Origin: Selenomonadaceae bacterium
GTDB taxonomy: Bacteria > Bacillota > Negativicutes > Selenomonadales > Selenomonadaceae
Direction: 5' to 3'
Assembly: GCA_017455645.1 (NCBI GenBank)
Contig: JAFSZS010000019.1
Coordinates: 1-43,962 of the forward strand
DNA: 43,962 bases
Below are positions 28,396 through 41,328 of this stretch, piece after piece. Made by a program: the position numbers and the translations under genes. Within the stretch, counting starts at the first letter, position 1. Each line of letters begins with the position of its first letter. Under the pieces are notes generated by a model. The model did no database searches, had not been told where the DNA came from, and saw only the letters and a list, made by a program, of their open reading frames with translations.

Positions 28396-31300
28396 TCAAT
28401 AACTTTTGACAAAATCCCAAAGTTTTTCCTTTTCCAGAAAATCAATAATGAAGACGTAAAAAATATCGCCGTCTTCAGTGGAATGCACGCGCCGCCCAAA
28501 ATCTTCAATGATTTTTGTATCGCCGCTCGCAGTTTTTATTCTGTATCGAACATAATCGTAGCCTGCAGAAATTTCAATTTGTTCATAAATTGTTTGGTGA
28601 ACTTTTTCCCAATCGTGCGGATGAACGCAACCTTTGAAACTGTTGCCGGTAAATTTTCTGAACTGCTCCAAAGATTCACAATCGTAAATTTTCCAAAGGC
28701 GAGTGTTGGCGTACAAAATTTCCTGCGCGTCATTGTCTTTGTAAATCAAAAAGCCGCCGGGCATACCTTCAGAAATTTTAGAAAGACTTACGCCGAGTTG
28801 GGCGCGGTTTTCTGCAATCATTTTCATTGAAAACTTTTGAAAAGAATTGCGCCCCGCCATTTTCACGGCGTACAAAGCCATATCTGCATTTTGGTAAAGT
28901 TCCCGGTAACTTTCGCCCTGCTCCGGAAAAATCGAATAGCCGATTGACATTGTGTAACTTACCTGCTGATTGTTGTAGTAAATAAATTTTTCCTGCGCAC
29001 TGAAATTTTTTAAGCATTCCTCAATTTCCAGCGGCGAAAGATTTTTTAGAATTACCAAAAATTCATCTCCGCCCAAACGCGCAATAATCCCTGTATCCTC
29101 AAAATTTTCAGTCATTCTTGACGCCGCGTCTTTTATAATTCCGTCGCCGCAATCGTGCCCGAATCTGTCGTTAATTTGTTTGAAATTATCAAGATCCAAA
29201 ATCACAAACGCAAAAAAATTTTCGTCAACCATAAATTTTTGAATCAGATTAACCGCAGTCCTGCGATTGTATACGCCGGTTAAATTGTCCCGTTCAATCA
29301 AAGAAATCATTGCTTCATTTGTGCGGCGGTAGGCGTCAATGTCAAACATTAAGAAAAAGGCGTGAACTTCGTTGACGTCGGGAGCCTCTCGAACTTGATA
29401 AACTGCGTGCAACCAACGCGGCTCTGCATCAGAATCTGCGCGACTTAAAAATTCTGTTTCGGCGGAAATTTTGCCGCGCTCGTATTCGCTCAATAATTTC
29501 TTGCGATTGAAAAATTTTGCAATTTCATTTTGAGAATTTTTGGCAACCGTATTCAAAACAACGTCACGGATAACTTCACTGTACCGCCTCGAAATGTAAT
29601 TTGAATTAATGTTGCTCATTGTCTGCTTGCCAAGGTGCATATATAAAATCCTGTCGGTTGTTAAATCTGCCTCAAGGTAAAAAGAATTGTACAGAAATTG
29701 CTCAAAGGAGCCGTAACCCAAAATTGAAGTGAAGGAACGGCTTGCAAGCAAAAGAAAAATAGGATTGCCGGGCATATCGTAATATTCCATTCCTTGATTA
29801 TCAATTTCCGGCAAGCGTTTAGTTCTTTCGGCGTCAATATTCCTCGCGCAGCTTAGAAAATATTTTTTGCCGTGGTAAATCATTGGGATAATTATATACA
29901 TTTGCCAAGTAAAATTGTGGCGTTCGTTGCGCGTGCGGAAATAATCTGTAACGTGCGTACCGCCGACTTCATTGATTCTTTCTTCGATTGTTTCAAGGTC
30001 AAAAAATTTTTCAAACTTAATTCTGTCTTCGACGTGAATATTTTTTTCGGCGAAATTTTTAATTGACTGCGCGACCGAGCCTTTAACAAAACTTTCAATG
30101 TATCGTGAAGAACTGATATAAATATTTTCAACTTCGGTGCCGTCGCCGTGAATTAAATCAATTCGGCTGTAAAGCGTGTACAAAAATTTCAGTGCCACGT
30201 TTTGCCGCTTTTCTTTTCGGATTGAAAGATTGGTTGAAATATAATCGACAATGGCAAGGAGCGCGCTTGTTTTAGTTTCTGAATTGTAAGCGATACAGCG
30301 CAGGCGAATACTGAAAAAACCTTCGCTTGTTACAAAATCGCAACTGTCCTCCGCGCCGGTTTTTATGCACTGTTGCGCGGTACTGCGAATTTTCATTGAA
30401 AACGGCAGCGAAAAATTATTGAAAACGTCATTGGGCAAACATTTTTCACCGAGTCCCAAATTTTTAAAAATATTTCTGAAGCCGGCGTTTGAAACCAAAA
30501 ATTTAAATCTTTGCCCGTCAAATTCAGAAATTGCAAGCGGCAAGCCGTTAAGCATAAAATTTAAATCGTCTTGAGCGGTAGAAATTCGCGCAGAAATATT
30601 TTCTGAAGATATATTTTCAAAATTTTGAGCAGACCAGCCGGTTTTCAGCGGCGTTTGAGAAAGTAAATTGACGCGCCCTATTGCGTTGTAATATTTTCTT
30701 TCGTTGGGGTTTTCGTGGCGATTGGGCGAACGGTCCAACATATCAAAGGAAGTTGGACGCCCGAATAAAAATCCCTGCGCACTTTCGCAACCTGTTTGGC
30801 GCAGAAATTCCAAAACAACTTCATCTTCGACGCCTTCCATCAAAGTGCGAATACCCAATTCTTTTGCCATATTCATAATATTTTTCAGGATAAGGCGCGA
30901 GCGTTCCTTGGTATGAAAATTTTGCAAAAATCGCTTGTCAATCTTCAGCAAGTCAAAATTTATTTCTTCCAAAACATTCAGCGAAGAATATTTACTGCCG
31001 AAATTGTCCAGCCAAATTTCAAAGCCGTTGCGTTTAAATTTTTCCAGTACGTCATAAATTTCTTGTCGATTTTCGCCGAGTGCGCGCTCTGTAATTTCTA
31101 TGTTCAGCAAATTTTTTGGCAGGTTGTTAATCCTTAAAGCTTCCGACGCAAGGTAAGGCATATTTAAAAATTGAAAATCCAACGCGCTTAAATTTATTGA
31201 CACCGGAACGATAGGGAAGCCGCGCTCCATTGACATTTTCATTTGTGAACAAATTTTTCTCAAAACAAAAACGTCCAACTTGTGAATCAAGCGGGCGTCT

Positions 31301-31980
31301 TCAAGCACTCCAATAAAATCTGCCGGCGAAAGAAAACCGTACTGCGGATCTTCCCAACGCGCCAGCCCTTCATAGGCGCAAATTCTGCCGTTGACTACGT
31401 GCACAATCGGCTGATAATAAACTTTGATATAATCGTTGGTTGCAGATTCATTGATACTTTCGACGATATGACGCCGCAATTTTTCACGCTTGCCGAGTTC
31501 ATTATTAAAGTAAGCAAAGTGAACTTTTTCAGAATCTTTCACGGCTTCACAGGCAATTTCGGCGCATTCTTGAGCGTGCGCTGTTGTTTCGCCCTGTGCA
31601 TTTGGAACAACATAAACGCCCGCCTTCATGATAATTTCTTCGTGTCGATTGAAAAAAGCTACAGCGTTTCTTACGATTTTTATTCGCCGCTCGACGTCCA
31701 AATTTCTTGCAACCAAAATAAATCTGTCATTGAAACACCTTGCAACGCAATATTCGGGAAAAGTTTCGGCGATAACGTCTGCAACGTGCGTAAGCAGGCG
31801 GTCGCTCTCGTCGAAGCCGTGCAAGTAGCTGAACGCGCGAAAATTTTTTACGTCAAAATGAATAAAGACAATTCCTTTTTTGAGTGCCTCCGCGTCGGAC
31901 AAAATATTTTGCGAAAATTTTTTAAAGCAGGTCATACTCGGTAAGCCGGTTAGGGCGTCTTTTTGGCTTGTTTGTTCCAT
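28396..31980 (-). CDS. Large multidomain GGDEF-EAL-GGDEF c-di-GMP protein
   Basis: 1194 residues, no signal peptide or membrane helix, so cytoplasmic. Order: degenerate GGDEF (residues about 1-165, FNDRF at 83-87 where GGDEF should be); EAL-type domain (about 170-415) with EGL at 204-206, EITERA near 295, DNFG at 325-328 instead of DDFG, and EGVED near 382; a poorly conserved, probably PAS-like middle (about 470-880); a second GGDEF with intact GGDEF at 970-974 and no RxxD I-site; a C-terminal PAS-like domain (about 1075-1180). The second GGDEF should be active. The Asp-to-Asn change in the metal-binding motif casts doubt on phosphodiesterase activity. The RBS is AAGGGGAG. It lies 33 bases after the SBP-EAL gene and is probably co-transcribed. 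Confidence 0.93.
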   Translation of the reverse strand: MEQTSQKDALTGLPSMTCFKKFSQNILSDAEALKKGIVFIHFDVKNFRAFSYLHGFDESDRLLTHVADVIAETFPEYCVARCFNDRFILVARNLDVERRIKIVRNAVAFFNRHEEIIMKAGVYVVPNAQGETTAHAQECAEIACEAVKDSEKVHFAYFNNELGKREKLRRHIVESINESATNDYIKVYYQPIVHVVNGRICAYEGLARWEDPQYGFLSPADFIGVLEDARLIHKLDVFVLRKICSQMKMSMERGFPIVPVSINLSALDFQFLNMPYLASEALRINNLPKNLLNIEITERALGENRQEIYDVLEKFKRNGFEIWLDNFGSKYSSLNVLEEINFDLLKIDKRFLQNFHTKERSRLILKNIMNMAKELGIRTLMEGVEDEVVLEFLRQTGCESAQGFLFGRPTSFDMLDRSPNRHENPNERKYYNAIGRVNLLSQTPLKTGWSAQNFENISSENISARISTAQDDLNFMLNGLPLAISEFDGQRFKFLVSNAGFRNIFKNLGLGEKCLPNDVFNNFSLPFSMKIRSTAQQCIKTGAEDSCDFVTSEGFFSIRLRCIAYNSETKTSALLAIVDYISTNLSIRKEKRQNVALKFLYTLYSRIDLIHGDGTEVENIYISSSRYIESFVKGSVAQSIKNFAEKNIHVEDRIKFEKFFDLETIEERINEVGGTHVTDYFRTRNERHNFTWQMYIIIPMIYHGKKYFLSCARNIDAERTKRLPEIDNQGMEYYDMPGNPIFLLLASRSFTSILGYGSFEQFLYNSFYLEADLTTDRILYMHLGKQTMSNINSNYISRRYSEVIRDVVLNTVAKNSQNEIAKFFNRKKLLSEYERGKISAETEFLSRADSDAEPRWLHAVYQVREAPDVNEVHAFFLMFDIDAYRRTNEAMISLIERDNLTGVYNRRTAVNLIQKFMVDENFFAFVILDLDNFKQINDRFGHDCGDGIIKDAASRMTENFEDTGIIARLGGDEFLVILKNLSPLEIEECLKNFSAQEKFIYYNNQQVSYTMSIGYSIFPEQGESYRELYQNADMALYAVKMAGRNSFQKFSMKMIAENRAQLGVSLSKISEGMPGGFLIYKDNDAQEILYANTRLWKIYDCESLEQFRKFTGNSFKGCVHPHDWEKVHQTIYEQIEISAGYDYVRYRIKTASGDTKIIEDFGRRVHSTEDGDIFYVFIIDFLEKEKLWDFVKSY

Positions 31981-32013: not shown

Positions 32014-34956
32014 TTAAAATGCTCCGCTACTTGCAACTTCGGCATTGCGTTTCTCAAAGAAATTTATAAAATCTTCAACCGGCATTGGCTTAGCGTTCAA
32101 AAATCCCTGCCCGTACCGGCAACCTAAACTTAGCAACAAATTTTCTTCCTCGACAGTTTCAATACCTTCACAAATTACGCTCATTCCCAAAGATTGTCCC
32201 AGCTCAATAACTTTGCCCAAAATCTTTTTCATTTTTTGCGAAGAATCCGCGCCCGTTAATACAGACCTGTCAATTTTCATTACATCCATTGGCAAACTGC
32301 TTAACAAACTGAATGACGAATAGCCCGCGCCGAAATCGTCAACCGAAATTGTAAAGCCCATTGATTTTAAGCCGTTGATGATTCTTTGGGCGTTTTGTCG
32401 CGCAACTTTTTTATCGAAGTCGCCAAACATTGTTTCGGTTATTTCAAGTTCAATCAAATTGGGCGGCAGATTATATTTTTCGATAATCGCCCGCATTTTT
32501 TCCAAATAGCCGTCTTCAGTCATATGCAGGCGGGATTGATTAACCGAAATTGGTATAACTTCCTTTCCGGCGTCAAGGCGTTCTCTTTGAAGTTGGCAAG
32601 TTTTTTCCAAAATGTAATAATCGACTTGAATAACAAAGCCGTTTTGCTCGAAGAGCGGGATAAATTTACCGGGCGGCATAAATCCCAATTCAGGACTAAT
32701 CCAGCGTATGAGAGCTTCCGCGCCGACAATTTTTTTGGTTTTAATATCGTACTTCGGCTGATACCACGCCTTAAATTCGTCGTTTTTCAGCGCGTCAATC
32801 ATTCGGTTTTCAATATCGTGTTCGGTTGTCAAAATTTCTTCCAAATTGTCGTCAAAAATTTTTACTTCATTTGCGGAAATTTGTTGACAGGAGGTAACGG
32901 CGCGCCCTATCGCTTGTTGCACGTCAAGGCTTTCATCGTAGTTGCTTATTCCCGCCTTCATATGCACGACGATTTTTGCATTGGCGTCCGCCGTGTCCAT
33001 GTAGCTGTACTTTTCGATAATTTTTGCCGCCCAATCTGCAATTATTGCTACATCTTCGGCTTGACAAAAGCAAATTAAGTGCCCGACGTCAATTCCTGCC
33101 GCCGTAAAAATTACATGCGATTCATTTTTTAAACCGTCCGCCAATGTATGAAATTGTTTATCGACAATTTTATGACCGGTGTTTTTTGTCATTACCGCGT
33201 TGCTTGCCATTGAAAAAACTGTAAAGAAAGTTTTGGCGTAGGGATTATTTTCTTGCAAATATTTAAGTGCAACAGGAACTTTCATTTCAAGCCACGCAAC
33301 ATTCGGCAAATTGTACCTTGAATCTGTATACGCCATTTTCTGCACAATTTCAAAATTTTTCTTGTTCATTTTGCGGCGGTAAATGTACGCGCCCAACGCC
33401 AAAATTAAAAATCCGAAAAAGAAAATGACTTTGAACGGGTTATCGTGAATAATTTTTTTCAGATTGAAAGGCGCGGAAATTTGGCGGTGTTTGTTAAGCA
33501 TATCCCGCACCCAGCTGACGTCGATATGATTTATTTCCTTGTTGAGAATGTGCCAAAGTTTTAAATCGCCTTTGGAAAAAGTGCCTAGGCTTATCAATTC
33601 GCTGTAAGCTGAAACTGCGCCAACTTCCAAATCGTAAGTTTCGGCGGCGTCAATCAGCGCGTTGACACAATCCCGCGCAACGTAGGCAACATCTGCGCGA
33701 CCGTCATTTACAGCTTTTAAAGTTTCTTCAATCGTTGGAAAGTACAAGATTTTTTCTTTGTCAAAATTCTGCTCAATGAAATCTGCCGTGTACTGCAAAT
33801 TTTCACAGCACGCAACTTTTCCCTGCGCGGGTTCACCGTAATAATTTTCACGTGTTACCGGTACATAATCCCGCCGAAAATAATTTTGCGTAGGACGAAT
33901 ATTATATTTTTCTGCCCAGCTGAAATCACAAACCGAATCGGCAACAAAGTCAACTTCGCCTTTCGATATTAAATCCCGCGTTTCTTCAAAGGAATTGGTT
34001 GCAACAATTTCAATTTCAATTTTTAAATCGTCGGAAATTCTTTTGATAATATCCGGCAAAACGCCCGCCAATTTTCCCGCGTCATCAAGGTAAGCGTAGG
34101 GGTGTTGGTACAAAAAAATCGCCGTGCGCAGTTTTTTCTTTTCTGCCAAAAAATTTTTTTCGTCACGATTTAAAAGCAGCGGAAAACCTTCCTTGAGATT
34201 GTACTTGCGTTTCAGCGTGTCACGAATATCTGACTGGTCCAATAAAAGTTGGTCCATTGCCCAATTTAACCGGTCCAAAAGTTCTGTCCTGTCTGCGCGA
34301 ACTGAAAGGCGGTAATTCTGCCTGTCAAAAAGCGCGTAGGTATTTTTAGCCTTGTTGTAAAAAAGCATTGCGTCAACGTAGCCGTCAACTTCGCCGCGGG
34401 CGTAAGCGTCAACAACTTCTTGATAAGTTCTGTAATTGGTAAAAGTGTATTGAAAACCTTCAGCGCGTGCAACTTCTTCAAGCCCGGGCGTATCGTAATT
34501 TGTGCGCACTCTTGCCAAATTTATTTGCGGCTTAATCTGATTTTCTTTAATTACCAGCTCCATTGGAAAACGCCCGACAACGTGATCTGTAGATTTTGCA
34601 TTTATCAGCCACTTATGGTCGCCCGGCAAATTTGGGATTATGTCAATTTCGCCGCTGTTAAGTTTGTCCAAAAGGTCTGTCCAATCGTCGAAAACAATGT
34701 ACTCAAATTCGCAGGGAACGTAATTTTCCAGAAATTCCATATACTCGTATCCGTAGCCGACGGTATGCCCCGGGCGGTCTTCTGACATGAAGCCGGTATT
34801 GACAACGTAGCCGACTTTTAGTTTTTCGTACTCTTTTTGAACGGGCACGCCTTCCACATTTGCAATACCGCTGAAATTTATCATTGAAGTAATTACTGTT
34901 GCCGCTAGCAAATTTTTTAAATTTTTTCTCATAAATTGGCGTGGCTGAAAATTCAT
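32014..34956 (-). CDS. Tandem solute-binding-domain c-di-GMP phosphodiesterase (SBP-SBP-TM-GGDEF*-EAL)
   Basis: 980 residues. A signal peptide is followed by two SBP_bac_3-like (amino-acid-binding) domains (about 45-255 and 270-495), a membrane helix (509-525), a degenerate GGDEF (about 540-700, motif absent), and an EAL domain (about 715-965) with EALIRW at 747, EITET near 838, DDFGAGYSS at 873 and EGIET near 930. All metal and catalytic motifs of an active EAL phosphodiesterase are present. Fused binding domains in the periplasm should gate c-di-GMP breakdown, as BvgS-like receptors do for kinases. ATG 34956 has only a weak site; ATG 34932 (MRKNLKNLL) would give a cleaner signal peptide. 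Divergent from the TRAP-type lipoprotein gene. Confidence 0.93.
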   Translation of the reverse strand: MNFQPRQFMRKNLKNLLAATVITSMINFSGIANVEGVPVQKEYEKLKVGYVVNTGFMSEDRPGHTVGYGYEYMEFLENYVPCEFEYIVFDDWTDLLDKLNSGEIDIIPNLPGDHKWLINAKSTDHVVGRFPMELVIKENQIKPQINLARVRTNYDTPGLEEVARAEGFQYTFTNYRTYQEVVDAYARGEVDGYVDAMLFYNKAKNTYALFDRQNYRLSVRADRTELLDRLNWAMDQLLLDQSDIRDTLKRKYNLKEGFPLLLNRDEKNFLAEKKKLRTAIFLYQHPYAYLDDAGKLAGVLPDIIKRISDDLKIEIEIVATNSFEETRDLISKGEVDFVADSVCDFSWAEKYNIRPTQNYFRRDYVPVTRENYYGEPAQGKVACCENLQYTADFIEQNFDKEKILYFPTIEETLKAVNDGRADVAYVARDCVNALIDAAETYDLEVGAVSAYSELISLGTFSKGDLKLWHILNKEINHIDVSWVRDMLNKHRQISAPFNLKKIIHDNPFKVIFFFGFLILALGAYIYRRKMNKKNFEIVQKMAYTDSRYNLPNVAWLEMKVPVALKYLQENNPYAKTFFTVFSMASNAVMTKNTGHKIVDKQFHTLADGLKNESHVIFTAAGIDVGHLICFCQAEDVAIIADWAAKIIEKYSYMDTADANAKIVVHMKAGISNYDESLDVQQAIGRAVTSCQQISANEVKIFDDNLEEILTTEHDIENRMIDALKNDEFKAWYQPKYDIKTKKIVGAEALIRWISPELGFMPPGKFIPLFEQNGFVIQVDYYILEKTCQLQRERLDAGKEVIPISVNQSRLHMTEDGYLEKMRAIIEKYNLPPNLIELEITETMFGDFDKKVARQNAQRIINGLKSMGFTISVDDFGAGYSSFSLLSSLPMDVMKIDRSVLTGADSSQKMKKILGKVIELGQSLGMSVICEGIETVEEENLLLSLGCRYGQGFLNAKPMPVEDFINFFEKRNAEVASSGAF

Positions 34957-35145: not shown

Positions 35146-36204
35146 ATGATATGGCGTTGTTTTGCGTCAATTTTTTTATTATTGACGATTGTACCAATTT
35201 TGAGCGGTTGCGGCACGCCGCGGGCGGGAACTCAAAAAAATTCTGATGAATATGAAAAAGTGCGCTTGGTAATGACTGCCAACGGTACAGAAATTGGAAT
35301 TGAAAGTTTGACGGCGCGGAAATTTGCAGAATTGGTTTCAGTTGCAAGCGGCGGAAATGTTTCAATAGAATTTTACCCGAATGACGAATTAAACGGCGGC
35401 AATACAAATGAAGCCGTGCGCTCGTTGACTGAAGGCTCGGTAGATTTGGGCGCGTACGTTGCCGGTACAATGTCAATGCTTGACCCGCGTTTGGAAGTTG
35501 CAACCATTCCTTGGTCTTTTTCAAGTTACAAAGAAGCGCGGCAAGTTATCGACAGCACCGGCGGCGATTTTTACGCCAAAGTTCTTTCTGAATACGGCTT
35601 GATATATCTTGGCTCGACACATAACGCAATGCGGCAACTTTCCAGCAATGTAAAACCTATCCACAATCCGGAAGATTTACAGGGCTTGCGTATTCGTGTT
35701 TTGGGCGGCGAAGTTTACCGGCTTTTATTTTCAACGCTCGGCGCAACGCCTGTACCTTTAAGTTGGAGCGAATTAAATATTGCAATTCGTCAAGGTTACA
35801 TTGAAGGGCAAGAAAACGGCTTTTTCCTCATGCGCTCCGGCAAGTTAAACGAAATTCAAAAATATATGACTGTTTGGAATTACCTTTATGAAAATTATCT
35901 TTTTGTAATTAACCGAAAAACTTTTGACCAGTTGCAGCCGAAAACTCAAAAATTGCTCCGTGACAAAATGCACGAGGCTTGCGAATGGAGCCGCGATTAT
36001 CTGGAAAATACAGAAAGAAAAATTCGCGCCCAATTTGAAGAAGAAGGCTTGGAAGTCATAGACTTAACGCCGGAAGAATTAAGAGTTTTCAAAGAAAAAG
36101 TAAAACCCCTGCGCGAAAGTTTGAAGGAAAAGTACGGCGAAGAAGCTTGCAAGGCTTTTCTGATTGATATGGAAAAAAATTTTGAAAAGGATGATGACTT
36201 GTGA
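35146..36204 (+). CDS. TRAP-type (DctP) solute-binding lipoprotein paired with a diguanylate cyclase
   Basis: 352 residues from ATG 35146 (MIWRCFASIF), lipoprotein signal ending at Cys22 (ILSGC). DctP-family features: LVMTANGTEIGIESLTARKFAELV, GGNVSIEFYPNDELNGGNTNEAVRSLTEGSVDLGAY, IPWSFSSYKEAR, the conserved Arg region LQGLRIRVLGGEVYRLLFSTLGATPVPLSWSELNIAIRQGYIEGQENG. TRAP binding proteins deliver carboxylates to DctQM permeases, but no DctQ or DctM gene is here; the next gene, overlapping by four bases, is a GGDEF protein. It is therefore probably a sensory binding protein for an organic acid. Confidence 0.9.
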   Translation: MIWRCFASIFLLLTIVPILSGCGTPRAGTQKNSDEYEKVRLVMTANGTEIGIESLTARKFAELVSVASGGNVSIEFYPNDELNGGNTNEAVRSLTEGSVDLGAYVAGTMSMLDPRLEVATIPWSFSSYKEARQVIDSTGGDFYAKVLSEYGLIYLGSTHNAMRQLSSNVKPIHNPEDLQGLRIRVLGGEVYRLLFSTLGATPVPLSWSELNIAIRQGYIEGQENGFFLMRSGKLNEIQKYMTVWNYLYENYLFVINRKTFDQLQPKTQKLLRDKMHEACEWSRDYLENTERKIRAQFEEEGLEVIDLTPEELRVFKEKVKPLRESLKEKYGEEACKAFLIDMEKNFEKDDDL

Positions 36205-38603
36205 AGAAGAAAATTTACCACTTTTGCCTGTCAGCATTCTTGTACTTCATAGTTGCAAAATACGCGGGCTTGATTTTGATAATGCCGGATAAAATTTTTG
36301 GAGTTGCAACATTTTTACCGCCGATGTTGGGTTTAATGTGGGGACCGTGGGCAGCGGCGGGCGTTTACATTGGCGGAATTTTTTCAACGCCTGAATTTGC
36401 AAATTTCTTTTCGGCGAAACTTAGCGGCGGCGATTATTTTTTTATTTGGTTTAAAGGTTTATGGGTATTTTTGGTGGGCTTTTTGCCTTACTTTCTTTGG
36501 CACAAAATTTTGATTGACACAGACGAAAACGCGCCGGCTCTTCGAGTTCATACGCTGAAAAAATTTATCACAGTCTTTTTCATAACATTTGCGGTAACTT
36601 CAATCTTTCGCGGCTTGACGGCAAGCGCGGCAGAATTTGAAATGGTAACCGATTGGTTTTTTGCGGCAAGAAAAGCTACACTGCCAATTTTTATTTTCGC
36701 GTGTTTCGTCAACGATTTTTTCATTGCCGTTTTTTTAGATTTGGCGTGGTTTTTCTTTTTGGCAAGCAGCGGTTACACTTTGTACAACCCTGCAAAAATT
36801 ATTGCCGCGCCGCCGATAAATCCTGACGACCATACAAATACCGAAACAAAACAAGCTTGGGTTATTGCGTTTTGGTTTTATTCACTTTTCCCCTTGGGCG
36901 TTTTTTATCTGGACAAATTCCAATTTTACGGTATGGATTTTATCAACGTTTGGCTTTTTTTCGTGGCAGAATGCCTTTCAATGGTTGATATTTATCTTGT
37001 GCTGATGTTGTATTTAATGTTGCGTCATCGCCGCTCCATAATGATGGAAGTTGTATTTTTGGTATCGCAGACAGTATTTTTATCTGCAACAGTTTTGGGC
37101 TGGGGAAGTTCGGTAGCAATGGGCGAAATGGTAACTTCGCACGCCAATGAATCCCTGCACGCAATGAGTGCTATTTGCCGTGAAAGATTGTACCGCACTT
37201 TCTTTTTGGTTAGGCAAGCTGTAAACGGTATGAAATTGCAAGCCTTAAATTCTTTGGAAAGTTACGAGCGTTTGGCTGATGATTCAGAATATCGGCGAAA
37301 TTACCTTAACGAAATGAAGAAAAATTTCAATGCTATAGGGCTGGGAATTGACGGCAACATTTCATACTATTTGCGCTTTATTCCCGAAATTGAAGGAACA
37401 AGCGGCGGTTTCTCAATGCAAAGGGAAGAGGCGCGCTGGGAAGGGCAACTTTCAAATTTCAAGGAACGTGCGCCCATTGACCTTGCGCCTTATGATCCGG
37501 AAGATGTTCAAAATGTCGGCTGGTTTTACATTCCAATGAAGTCAAGAACTGCAACTTGGATTGAGCCTTACGTTGACGCCGTTACAGATTTTTATGTAAT
37601 TTCCTACGTTGCGCCGCTTTTTCTTGAGGGAAAATTTATTGGCGTTGTCGGTATGGATATTGATTTTAATTTTATTATTCAAGAATTGCGCCGAATGTCC
37701 ATTTACGATTACGGCTACGTTTATATTATGAATCGAAACAATTTGGTACTTTACCATCAAGATTTGCCGCAAGGCGCGGTTTTCCAACCCAATCCCGATT
37801 TTCAAGAAATTGAAATTTTTTTGACAAATGGAATGTGGCTTGGAATTGCAACGCCTTTAACCCGCGTCCATGAAGAGCGAAATAAAATAATGATGCACTT
37901 AGTCGCCGCAATAGTTTTTGTTGCAATGTTAATTTCGCTTGTCAGCATTTTCTTTGCGTCCAAGGCGATTAAACCTTTGGCGGGAATGACTGAAGCGGCG
38001 CGGCGAATTGCCTCCGGCGATTTAAACGTTAAAATTTCTTATGAATCCGGCAACGAATTGGGAATTTTGGTACGCAGTATAAAAGAAATGGCGGCGAAGT
38101 TGGAAATTTATGTTTACCGTGACAAATTAACCGGTCTTTTGAACGCGGCGGCCTATATCAGCAAAAAAGCTGAACTTGACGAACAAAGCAAATTAAATTC
38201 CGGCTTAAATTACGGCGTTGTTATTTTTGACGCCAATTTTTTGAAAAAGGTTAATGACAATTACGGGCACGAAGCCGGCAATGAACTTTTGCGCCGCGCT
38301 GCCAAAGTTATCAGCAAAGTTTTTGCCAACAGTTCAGCTTACAGAGTTGGCGGCGACGAATTTGCGGCAATTTTGGAAAATCAAGACTACGACAGGCGCG
38401 AAGAACTTTTAAAACTCTTCGATGAAGCAGTTGCAGCTGAAACTTTTACCGCGGCGGGCGATACGCTGAATTTGTCTGTTGCTCGCGGGCTCGGTATTTT
38501 TGAGCCGGGTATGGATTTTGCCGCCGTTTCCAAAAAAGCTGATTCTGAAATGTACTCTCACAAAGCCGCAATTAAAGCTAAATTCGGCGAAGAAGTACGT
38601 TAA
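36201..38603 (+). CDS. Membrane diguanylate cyclase: multi-TM domain, dCache, HAMP, GGDEF
   Basis: 800 residues. Residues 1-290 form six or seven membrane helices of a MASE-like integral sensor (GVATFLPPMLGLMWGPWAAAGVYIGGIF resembles MASE1-type proteins). Residues about 305-560 form a periplasmic double-Cache-like domain (GVVGMDIDFNFIIQEL, YVYIMNRNNLVLYH). A helix at about 568-590 leads to HAMP (AIKPLAGMTEAARRIASGDLNVKI) and a GGDEF domain with GGDEF at 717-721 and no RxxD I-site, so no product inhibition is expected. GTG 36201 overlaps the stop of the TRAP-type lipoprotein gene (GTGA): tight translational coupling. Confidence 0.92.
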   Translation: MKKKIYHFCLSAFLYFIVAKYAGLILIMPDKIFGVATFLPPMLGLMWGPWAAAGVYIGGIFSTPEFANFFSAKLSGGDYFFIWFKGLWVFLVGFLPYFLWHKILIDTDENAPALRVHTLKKFITVFFITFAVTSIFRGLTASAAEFEMVTDWFFAARKATLPIFIFACFVNDFFIAVFLDLAWFFFLASSGYTLYNPAKIIAAPPINPDDHTNTETKQAWVIAFWFYSLFPLGVFYLDKFQFYGMDFINVWLFFVAECLSMVDIYLVLMLYLMLRHRRSIMMEVVFLVSQTVFLSATVLGWGSSVAMGEMVTSHANESLHAMSAICRERLYRTFFLVRQAVNGMKLQALNSLESYERLADDSEYRRNYLNEMKKNFNAIGLGIDGNISYYLRFIPEIEGTSGGFSMQREEARWEGQLSNFKERAPIDLAPYDPEDVQNVGWFYIPMKSRTATWIEPYVDAVTDFYVISYVAPLFLEGKFIGVVGMDIDFNFIIQELRRMSIYDYGYVYIMNRNNLVLYHQDLPQGAVFQPNPDFQEIEIFLTNGMWLGIATPLTRVHEERNKIMMHLVAAIVFVAMLISLVSIFFASKAIKPLAGMTEAARRIASGDLNVKISYESGNELGILVRSIKEMAAKLEIYVYRDKLTGLLNAAAYISKKAELDEQSKLNSGLNYGVVIFDANFLKKVNDNYGHEAGNELLRRAAKVISKVFANSSAYRVGGDEFAAILENQDYDRREELLKLFDEAVAAETFTAAGDTLNLSVARGLGIFEPGMDFAAVSKKADSEMYSHKAAIKAKFGEEVR

Positions 38604-38625: not shown

Positions 38626-39279
38626 CTATTTAATATGAGGATATTTACTGCTATTAAGTAGCACTATAAAAACCAAAGAAAAAATTATCAGAGCCATTGC
38701 CCACTGAAAAGCCAAATCGTAATCGTTGGCTTGCACGGCTGAATAAATTGCAGTACTCATTGTTTGAGTAACGCCGGGGATATTTCCGGCAAACATTATC
38801 GTTGCTCCAAATTCGCCTAGTGCCCGCGTAAATGCTAAAACTGTTCCCGCCAAAATCCCAAATCTTGTATTGGGCAAAATTATTTTCCAAAAAATTTTCC
38901 ATTCGCTAACGCCTAAAGTTTGCGCGGCGTAAATTATATTTTTGTCGAGTTGTTCAAATGCTCCGCGCGTTGTTCGGTACATCAGCGGCAACGAAACTAC
39001 AACCGCCGAAATTACCGCCGCCTGCCACGTGAAAACCAACGATATATCGAACTGCAGTAAAAATTTTCCAATAAAACTCCTCTTGCCAAAAAATAAAATT
39101 AAAAAAAATCCTACCACCGTCGGCGGCAAGACCATTGGTAAAGTTATAAGCGCGTCTGCAATTCCTTTGAAGCGTTTCAAGTTCGCCACTTTGTACGCCA
39201 AAAAAATTCCGGCAAAGAAAGTGATAAAAGTTGCAGAAAGCGCAGTTTTTAAAGTTACTATCAGCGGGGCAATTTCCAT
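38626..39279 (-). CDS. modB: Molybdate ABC transporter permease ModB
   Basis: 217 residues, five to six membrane helices, BPD_transp_1 fold with LPMVLPPTVVGFFLILFFGKRS near residue 45 and the EAA loop AAQTLGVSEWKIFWKIILPN near 138, then TRALGEFGATIMFAGNIPGVTQTMS, a strong ModB/CysW-type signature. ATG 39279 lies four bases after the modC stop, with GGGTGA as ribosome binding site inside the end of modC. Convergent with the diguanylate cyclase, 22 bases apart, with no clear terminator. Confidence 0.95.
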   Translation of the reverse strand: MEIAPLIVTLKTALSATFITFFAGIFLAYKVANLKRFKGIADALITLPMVLPPTVVGFFLILFFGKRSFIGKFLLQFDISLVFTWQAAVISAVVVSLPLMYRTTRGAFEQLDKNIIYAAQTLGVSEWKIFWKIILPNTRFGILAGTVLAFTRALGEFGATIMFAGNIPGVTQTMSTAIYSAVQANDYDLAFQWAMALIIFSLVFIVLLNSSKYPHIK

Positions 39280-39283
39280 TTTT

Positions 39284-40315
39284 TCACCCGTTCATTAAAA
39301 TAATTTTTTCAGCCGGAAAATTTATAGAAATTTCGGCAGCTTTAATTTTCTGCCACAAATTTTTTTGAACTTCCCAACGAATTAAATTTTTGCCTGCGCG
39401 AAGCATCACGATATAAAAAAATGTGTCTTCAATTTCTTTGGCAACTTCAAAGGGAAAAACATTTTCGCCGGCAGTTGCATTTTCCAAAAAATTTGAATGA
39501 ATCCCGACAAATTTTAAATCGTCAGGGATTTTTTTATTTAGCGTCAAAGTTATGTTCCAATCGGTCGCGAAAATTTTATTGGCGTCAATTTTTTTTGCGG
39601 CAGAAATATTTTTGCAGCCCGTCAAAGTAGCCGCGGCAACAGTTTTGGGATTTTTGAAAATTTCCTGCTTTGTATTTGCTTCAGAAATTTTGCCCTGCGA
39701 CATTACAGCAATTTTATCTGAAAGTCTGAAGACTTCGCCGCGGTCGTGCGAAACTAAAATTGCCGCGCCGCCGTAAGATTGAAAAATTTCCTCAAGTTCC
39801 AATTCAAGCCGCCATTTCAAAAAATTATCCAGTGCAGAAAAAGGCTCATCCAGTAACAAAATTTCGGCGTGCGAACTCAAAATTCTTGCAAAGGCTACGC
39901 GCTGTTGTTGCCCGCCGCTTAATTCGCCGGGGTAGGAATTTTCTAAGCCGTTCAATTCAAAGCGTGCAAGATTTTCGCGCAGCTTTTGAATTTTTTCAGA
40001 TTGTGAACCGACGGCGGCAAATAAAATATTTTCTGCAACCGTCATATTTGGGAAGAGTGCATAATTTTGAAAAAGATAACCGACGCGCCGAGCTTGAGGC
40101 GGCAAATTTATTTTTTTATCGCTGTCAAAAAGTATTCGCCCGTTCAAAATAATTTTGCCTTCGTCAGGCGTTTCAATACCGGCGATAGTTTTCAGCGTCA
40201 TACTTTTACCGCAACCCGACGCGCCCAAAAGTGCAAAAACTTCATCTTGCACTTGAAAAGTTACATTCAATACAAAGTCGCGCAGATTTTTTTTAATCGA
40301 TACTTCTAAAACCAT
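39284..40315 (-). CDS. modC: Molybdate ABC transporter ATP-binding protein ModC
   Basis: 343 residues from ATG 40315. Walker A GASGCGKS near residue 31, Q-loop LFQNYALFPNMTV near 83, signature LSGGQQQRVAFARIL near 131, Walker B ILLLDEPFSALD near 151, H-loop SHDRGE. A C-terminal TOBE-like region (about 225-343) is degenerate compared with E. coli ModC. The gene overlaps modA by 23 bases and has no clear ribosome binding site, so it is probably translated by coupling; a TTG at 40324 is an alternative start. Confidence 0.93.
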   Translation of the reverse strand: MVLEVSIKKNLRDFVLNVTFQVQDEVFALLGASGCGKSMTLKTIAGIETPDEGKIILNGRILFDSDKKINLPPQARRVGYLFQNYALFPNMTVAENILFAAVGSQSEKIQKLRENLARFELNGLENSYPGELSGGQQQRVAFARILSSHAEILLLDEPFSALDNFLKWRLELELEEIFQSYGGAAILVSHDRGEVFRLSDKIAVMSQGKISEANTKQEIFKNPKTVAAATLTGCKNISAAKKIDANKIFATDWNITLTLNKKIPDDLKFVGIHSNFLENATAGENVFPFEVAKEIEDTFFYIVMLRAGKNLIRWEVQKNLWQKIKAAEISINFPAEKIILMNG

Positions 40316-41075
40316 ATTTTTCAAAAATTTTCTTTGCAGTTTCAGCCGAAGTAAAATCTAAAAACTTTTTCGCCGCGTCAAGATTTTTTGTGTCTTTAAT
40401 CACAGCCGCGGGATAAATTACCGGCTTATGAGAATTTGCGGGCGCGGTTGCAACAACTTTAACTTTGTCGGAAATTGCCGCGTCAGTTGCGTAAACAACG
40501 CCGCAATCTGCCTCGCCGCTTTCAACCCACGCCAAAACTTGCCGCACGTCAGAACCGTAAACCGCCTTTGCTTGTACCGCGTCCAAAATTCCAAAATTGT
40601 TAAAAATTTCTTCGCTGTACTGCCCAACCGGTACGCCCTTTGGCTCGCCAAGTGCAATGTGCTGAATATTTTCTTCAGTCAAATTTTCAAAGCCGGAAAT
40701 ATTTTTGTCGCTGTCATTCGGCACAATTAAGACAACTTTATTTTCAAGCAGATTTTTTCTTGTACCTTCAGCAAGTGCGCCGGCAGTTTCGAGCGCGTCC
40801 ATTTGTTTTTGCGCGGCTGAATAAAATAAATCAGTACCGCCGCCGTTTTCAATCGCCTGTTGAAGTGCGCCGCTGGAGCCGAAATTAAAAATTACTTTGA
40901 AGTTGGGATTTTCTTTTTCAAATTCGGCGGAAATTTCTTTCATTGCGTCAGTTAAACTTGCCGCCGCTGCAACGTGAATTTCTGTTTGCGGATTGTCATT
41001 CGTGGCAGTACCGCCGCCGCAACCCGTTACCAATAAAGCCGCCGTTGCCATTACCATACCCCAAAATTTTTTCAT
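40293..41075 (-). CDS. modA: Molybdate-binding lipoprotein ModA
   Basis: 260 residues from ATG 41075, behind TGGAGG eight bases upstream; a longer frame to 41141 would include the riboswitch terminator. Lipoprotein signal ends at Cys19 (LLVTGC). ModA motifs: EIHVAAAASLTDAMKEISAEFE, VIFNFGSSGALQQAIENGGGTDLFYSA (Ser residues that contact the oxyanion), LAWVESGEADCGVVYATDA. First gene of modABC, controlled by the Moco riboswitch upstream. Confidence 0.95.
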   Translation of the reverse strand: MKKFWGMVMATAALLVTGCGGGTATNDNPQTEIHVAAAASLTDAMKEISAEFEKENPNFKVIFNFGSSGALQQAIENGGGTDLFYSAAQKQMDALETAGALAEGTRKNLLENKVVLIVPNDSDKNISGFENLTEENIQHIALGEPKGVPVGQYSEEIFNNFGILDAVQAKAVYGSDVRQVLAWVESGEADCGVVYATDAAISDKVKVVATAPANSHKPVIYPAAVIKDTKNLDAAKKFLDFTSAETAKKIFEKYGFRSID

Positions 41076-41087
41076 AATAAAACCTCC

Positions 41088-41131
41088 AAAAAAATTAGAC
41101 TGTCTCCCCAAGCGAATTGAAAAGGCAGTCC
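41088..41131 (-). terminator. Expression-platform terminator of the Moco riboswitch
   Basis: On the minus strand, GGACTG (41126-41131) pairs with CAGTCT (41097-41102), with a possible inner CC/GG extension, followed by AATTTTTTT directly before the modA ribosome binding site at 41082-41087. Formation of this hairpin would stop transcription before modA. Confidence 0.75.
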
Positions 41132-41194
41132 TTTTTCGCAAATTTTTAAAGCTACACCCTTAGAAATTGCCGCGCCAAAAATCTGCAGATATGT

Positions 41195-41291
41195 AAACTC
41201 CTTTTCAAAATGGAAGGCGGCGAAGTTTCCAACGCCACCCCGGCTGAATGTCATAGCTTAAAGCCTTAGACATTTTCGCTCGGAGAAATTT
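41195..41291 (-). ncRNA. Moco (molybdenum/tungsten cofactor) riboswitch, modABC leader
   Basis: Reading the minus strand: CTCCGAGC at the 5' side; an ATGTC/GACAT helix; then GCCGGGGTGGCG, TTGGAAACTT and CGCCGCC, forming a GGCG/CGCC helix capped by a GGAAAC loop; and finally AAAAGGAG, whose GGAG (41198-41201) closes the outer helix with CTCC (41282-41285). The order of CUCCGAGC, GGGUGGC, GGAAAC, GCCGCC and AAAGGAG matches my recollection of the Moco RNA motif consensus. It lies in the modA leader with a terminator downstream, so cofactor sufficiency would shut molybdate uptake. The only decisive test is a covariance-model search. Confidence 0.8.
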
Positions 41292-41328
41292 TTTCAAGCT
41301 AAGTCTACCATTGCGCCAAAAGTTGTAC

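Follow-up and report, generated by a model that had tools for sequence, protein, structure and literature searches.

The window, by which we mean the whole 43,962-nt stretch of DNA analysed here, encodes an orphan DctP lipoprotein that is most likely the detachable sensing part of a receptor, not an uptake component. A TRAP-type lipoprotein without a transporter is kept beside a membrane enzyme predicted to make c-di-GMP, which argues for a receptor role. We estimate a probability of about 0.7 that the two genes specify one receptor in two pieces, in which the loaded lipoprotein would dock on the periplasmic dCache domain of the diguanylate cyclase and switch it. The analysis itself showed that the genes are coupled and the pair conserved, that the sensor DctPs arose once and that a dedicated permease is lacking; it also showed an exchange of partner for a ChvE-like protein, the predicted folds and the loss of uracil-specific residues from the dCache domain.

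A conserved pair of coupled genes

The DctP lipoprotein gene (35146..36204, forward strand; 352 aa) runs from an ATG at 35146 to a TGA at 36202-36204. The receptor diguanylate cyclase gene (36201..38603, forward strand; 800 aa; Pfam dCache_1, HAMP and GGDEF) starts with the GTG at 36201, within a GTGA (36201..36204, forward strand) in which the DctP stop overlaps the cyclase start by 4 nt. A Shine-Dalgarno-like AAAAGGA for the cyclase was read within the DctP gene (36185..36191, forward strand). The sequence-only reading had reported this overlap between the lipoprotein gene and the 800-residue cyclase, as well as the absence of dctQM beside it, and both were confirmed: neither dctQ nor dctM adjoins the pair. 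No c-di-GMP riboswitch was found in the window, and predictions of promoters and terminators were at chance level.

When 151 genomes of the family were searched with the N-terminal part of the cyclase, nearly all close relatives were located immediately downstream of a DctP gene. According to a scan of the named genomes, the carriers are Selenomonadaceae metagenome-assembled genomes (MAGs), mostly from the ruminant rumen and gut. We tallied ~36 distinct DctP-cyclase loci, at each of which a binding protein is encoded with a transmembrane receptor, as in receptors stimulated by substrate-binding proteins (SBPs). The flanking genes are unrelated from locus to locus, and the only common genes are these two. 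Among 30 pairs whose junctions were measured, 14 had the 4-nt overlap, 14 a gap of at most 30 nt and two a slightly larger gap. The number of distinct loci, the recurrence of the same overlap and the differing flanks together indicate that the DctP-cyclase order exceeds chance.

A divergent gene on the reverse strand, 189 bp from the pair (32014-34956), encodes a protein of 980 aa that combines two SBP_bac_3 domains with a degenerate GGDEF domain and an EAL domain. A phosphodiesterase with built-in binding-protein sensors thus appears to adjoin a cyclase with a separate sensor. This EAL protein was considered as a conserved divergent partner and rejected, as it is not kept beside the pair in other loci. 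On the same strand, a 1194-aa protein (28396-31980) has an unusual domain order, in which EAL spans residues 175-409, GGDEF spans 897-1045 and PAS_3 lies close to the C-terminus. A molybdenum cofactor (Moco) riboswitch (41182-41297, reverse strand; 67 bits) lies upstream of a modABC operon (38626-41141).

The lipoprotein and its origin

The lipoprotein was identified as a DctP by Pfam (9e-65) and by TIGR00787 (181 bits against a cutoff of 175). Its AlphaFold2 model has a pLDDT of 84, and the best PDB match was 4p47 (TMt 0.87). The signal peptide and lipobox LSGC (35146..35211, forward strand) include Cys22 as the lipidation site, and G21-C22 are invariant in an alignment of 29 cyclase-linked DctPs. 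Lipidation was rejected as a mark of sensing, since the DctPs in dctPQM operons of the family are nearly all lipoproteins too. Arg184 (35695..35697, forward strand), in an IRV motif, occupies the conserved carboxylate-binding position of TRAP binding proteins; it is invariant in the same 29 proteins and aligns with the IRT/IRV arginine of 4p47 and 4xeq. In TRAP SBPs, this conserved arginine is known to bind carboxylate. Solely from the invariant R184 and this family knowledge, the ligand is probably a carboxylate or organic acid. The sister dctPQM operons adjoin split transketolase genes, a neighbourhood that hints at sugar-type substrates and is too indirect to name the ligand.

A tree was built from 78 DctPs, and one branch (support 100/99) set apart the 33 cyclase-linked proteins; their sister group comprised DctPs from the same family that are linked to dctPQM and ~50% identical. 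The tree contained no permease-linked member within the sensor-DctP clade, and its topology indicates that the sensor DctPs arose once. Distances among DctPs and among cyclases were correlated across 31 pairs (Mantel r 0.93), as shared ancestry also predicts, and splitting the correlation by domain singled out no docking domain.

No dedicated permease

The assembly containing the window (G000) is a MAG of 2.31 Mb in 247 contigs, 81% complete. The DctP of the window is the only one in the whole assembly. The sequence-only reading had named a dctQM locus elsewhere that relies on this lipoprotein for transport as one observation that would speak against its proposal; a search of the 81%-complete assembly with a DctM profile gave no match. 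Likewise, none of 11 other genomes with the pair (79-99% complete) yielded a stand-alone DctM. Seven of these had fused permeases only (open frames of 638-666 codons), and three had no DctM match of any kind; G079 and G142 are among the genomes lacking DctM, and the one sub-threshold match in G092 is a Na+/sulphate symporter. The fused permeases are TAXI-type, two of them seen adjoining the TAXI binding protein NMT1_3. Elsewhere in the genus there are species with DctPQM operons, each of which includes a separate DctP; some sibling species have both such an operon and a DctP-cyclase pair, where cross-feeding between the two is possible.

These data bear on the possibility that the lipoprotein is a transport protein for an unlinked permease, either a TAXI-type fused one or a DctQM missed by the assembly, and that its adjacency to the cyclase reflects regulatory co-expression. 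The retained TRAP ligand arginine, the limited completeness of G000 and the siblings with dctPQM are compatible with such a role. We nevertheless consider it quite unlikely, as a stand-alone DctM is missing even where completeness reaches 99%, DctM is wholly absent from G079 and G142 and G092 shows only the sub-cutoff symporter, TAXI permeases adjoin their own NMT1_3 protein where this is visible, and the sibling operons have DctPs of their own. The earlier proposal of an orphan TRAP-type lipoprotein serving a cyclase instead gained support, both from the lack of a stand-alone DctM in G000 and the 11 further genomes combined with one sensor-DctP clade, and from paralogous cyclases that pair with a different binding lipoprotein.

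Exchange of the binding partner

Upstream of these paralogous cyclases (35-40% identity), the place of DctP is taken by a sugar-binding lipoprotein close to ChvE (3urm, E 1.7e-111), so that the binding partners are swappable. In the cyclase tree, the ChvE-linked enzymes form one clade (100/100) and the DctP-linked enzymes another, within which the partner was lost several times. The alternative partner resembles that of the ChvE-VirA system of Agrobacterium, in which the sugar-binding protein reportedly docks on the sensor and ChvE is also said to serve a transporter; unlike the cyclases, VirA has a histidine kinase output. At two loci (L082:7672-10447 and L094:1133-3864), a chemoreceptor-like gene directly followed by a gene for another ChvE-like lipoprotein (~40% identical) lies beside a DctP-cyclase pair.

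The unrelated flanks indicate that the cassette moves as a unit, and one might suppose that the two genes simply travel together, linked without functional interaction. This is very improbable given that the two genes almost always overlap or are separated by a short gap, that another SBP class occupies the same place in the paralogues, and that the sensor-DctP clade, which has no permease-linked members, has a single origin.

About eight full-length relatives of the cyclase have no adjacent SBP gene; either the cyclase does not strictly need a neighbouring partner or that partner is encoded elsewhere. A 65% relative of the window cyclase at locus L035 (G113:C12, 3716-8000) lacks a DctP; Dpp-type ABC permease genes lie upstream, and a binding protein is not visible. 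Neither kind of SBP adjoins the ~40 homologues examined in which the N-terminal membrane domain is missing (mostly ~520-590 aa; hosts in Clostridia, Treponema and Fibrobacter). An adjacent SBP was seen only with cyclases carrying the S-component-like membrane domain described below, and all such relatives have this domain. Because one deep split in the tree underlies the contrast, it is suggestive only.

The dCache domain has lost uracil-specific residues

The AlphaFold2 model of the cyclase (mean pLDDT 84.7) shows a long membrane region preceding the periplasmic dCache domain (37125..37886, forward strand). The closest solved structure is the dCache of 9HVJ (Z 28.1; profile E 2e-77), a Roseburia receptor for uracil and short-chain fatty acids (SCFAs) whose contact residues have been named (PMC12415202). 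The uracil residues that we checked were R116, T145, W160, Y176, N178, N180 and D205, with F129 not confidently placed. The window domain has R, I, W, Y, D, V and D at these seven positions and thus lacks the full set. The triad of T145, N178 and N180 is mostly lost in DctP-linked cyclases (kept in 2/19, 0/19 and 2/19, respectively). It is also missing from the ~8 full-length relatives that have no SBP gene next to them, which would be expected had these lost their partner at a later stage. The short SBP-less homologues keep it (8/8, 7/8 and 8/8). As for the SCFA site (Y225, H238, Y273 and K280), the window domain retains Y506 and H519 and lacks the Y273/K280 loop. This loop is missing in most short homologues too, so that the uracil residues alone separate the SBP-linked from the short group.

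Sensing of uracil or SCFAs by the window dCache was therefore rejected, as key residues are absent. Compared with the dCache_1UR receptors (Roseburia 9HVJ; diguanylate cyclase example M8, PMC12415202), the window cyclase shares the closest solved dCache fold, and the short homologues share the uracil residues; the window cyclase differs in the replacement of T145, N178 and N180 and the absence of the SCFA loop. Read most simply, these alignments indicate that the lineage acquiring binding lipoproteins abandoned the direct sensing of uracil. The short dCache cyclases (L116-L155, from Clostridia, Treponema and Fibrobacter), eight of which were checked residue by residue and keep the dCache_1UR uracil residues, are candidate uracil sensors.

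The pocket scaffold formed by R116, W160, Y176 and D205 (R392, W441, Y457 and D486 in the window) is kept in 19/19 DctP-linked cyclases, and direct ligand binding at the distal pocket is possible because this scaffold is intact. The cyclase could then sense the ligand itself, through this pocket, the S-component-like domain or both, with the lipoprotein acting as a non-docking scavenger or buffer that concentrates the ligand. The invariance of the four scaffold residues fits such an arrangement, as does the existence of full-length cyclases without an SBP neighbour. We judge it improbable, however, since the residues for uracil specificity are replaced only in the SBP-bearing lineage, and since partner class follows cyclase clade, which suggests a specific fit.

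An S-component-like membrane domain

The N-terminal membrane region (36201..37115, forward strand) has ~8 helices, and residues 1-210 resemble an ECF S-component of the QueT type. It had been described as MASE-like, a label that did not hold: no test gave a MASE1 match, whether for the cyclase itself, for 10 relatives or for 19 N-terminal regions, nor was there one anywhere in G000. The profile of the membrane domain instead matched QueT-type proteins (245-274 residues, some beside EcfT) with an hhalign probability of 98.8 (E 4e-17). It also matched the N-termini of SpoIIE-type phosphatases (probability 99.8), one of which is encoded in G000. Two unrelated membrane proteins did not match, nor did a single QueT sequence, a profile of S-component-like proteins being needed. 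No Pfam model matches the domain, and the likeness to S-components is thus distant. The fold search with the whole model was dominated by dCache and GGDEF matches and was uninformative on S-components.

The G000 phosphatase (L174:2626-5268, G000:C4) has the S-component-like domain fused to SpoIIE, with a UPF0489 protein gene before it and a LytTR response regulator gene after it; similar sets occur at L176 and L177. At L198, L200, L201 and L203, QueT-type S-components are encoded with an ECF T-component and nucleoside phosphorylase-like genes, which suggests that the ECF substrate is nucleoside- or methylthioadenosine-related.

The membrane domain may provide a second ligand input or a docking surface. 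The earlier idea that the cyclase integrates two inputs stands in so far as a multi-domain input from membrane domain, dCache and lipoprotein is plausible, and fails in that the membrane part is ECF-S-like, not MASE-like. All SBP-adjacent relatives have this domain and the ~40 dCache-only homologues have no such SBP, a pattern that would also fit docking on the S-component-like domain, not on dCache, with the TRAP lipoprotein passing ligand to a cyclase-fused module. We regard this as unlikely; if true, the receptor would combine components of TRAP and of ECF transporters.

HAMP and GGDEF domains

The HAMP linker (37953..38105, forward strand; Pfam 2e-11) is followed by the GGDEF domain (38115..38570, forward strand; Pfam 5.8e-22). 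The GGDEF motif is intact (38349-38363, residues 717-721), and the metal Asp is retained, with D677 and N685 kept in the alignment. The guanine-contacting Asp is replaced by N694; this guanine-reading residue is Asp in canonical enzymes and Ser in Hypr enzymes (PMC6456294). From these residues, the protein is a putative active cyclase. The absence of the RxxD inhibitory site, already pointed out by the sequence-only reading, was borne out (positions 708 and 711 are F and S) and extends to all aligned relatives. RxxD is missing in many GGDEF proteins. It does not follow that output is uncapped by product, as had been proposed, because only one known feedback site is lost with RxxD.

Proposed mechanism and known systems

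We infer the ligand, the docking site, the direction of regulation and the catalytic activity. In the two-piece receptor, a DctP freed from its ancestral role of supplying a TRAP permease would be lipid-anchored in the envelope, probably on the periplasmic side of a diderm. It would close around a small ligand, probably a carboxylate, and the closed form would dock on the periplasmic dCache domain. Docking might shift the signalling helix (TM ~553-575) and, through HAMP, the GGDEF dimer, which would respond with altered c-di-GMP synthesis. The S-component-like membrane domain could act as a second ligand or docking input.

The NspS-MbaA system of Vibrio cholerae and Sinorhizobium meliloti differs in its partner, NspS being reportedly a polyamine-binding, PotD-like protein and the window partner a TRAP DctP lipoprotein. 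MbaA is a GGDEF-EAL protein, whereas the window cyclase is GGDEF-only and carries dCache and S-component-like domains. The likeness lies in the control of a membrane-bound c-di-GMP enzyme by a periplasmic binding protein that is a separate polypeptide (PMC9993111), as would be the case here. SBP-driven c-di-GMP enzymes thus have precedents (PMC8846402, PMC9602780, PMC9993111). In Salmonella, STM1987 is likewise a dCache_1 diguanylate cyclase with a periplasmic binding protein, ArtI, and its arginine response needs both the dCache and the binding protein (PMC8846402); ArtI binds arginine, whereas the window partner belongs to the TRAP type, is coupled to the cyclase gene and has no permease. 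BctC of the Bordetella BctC-BctE system is TctC-type and passes its signal to a kinase (PMC5812351, PMC9602780). A carboxylate-binding protein of a secondary transporter is a sensor input there too, but the protein belongs to the TctC family and acts on a histidine kinase, and its transporter has been kept. According to a review of c-di-GMP sensing (PMC8846402), SBP_bac_3 is the sole member of the binding-protein clan whose part in c-di-GMP networks has been investigated. No TRAP DctP partner of a cyclase was described in the open papers searched; as the search was limited to these, it is weak evidence that a TRAP-type binding protein as cyclase partner is new, SBP-driven c-di-GMP enzymes being already known.

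If the two-piece receptor is real, permease-less DctP proteins would gain an assigned function. The partner of one cyclase scaffold is a lipoprotein of either TRAP or ChvE type, or is missing, which gives a natural series along which the residues for direct dCache ligands change. This series makes testable a shift from direct small-molecule sensing to sensing via an exchangeable binding protein.
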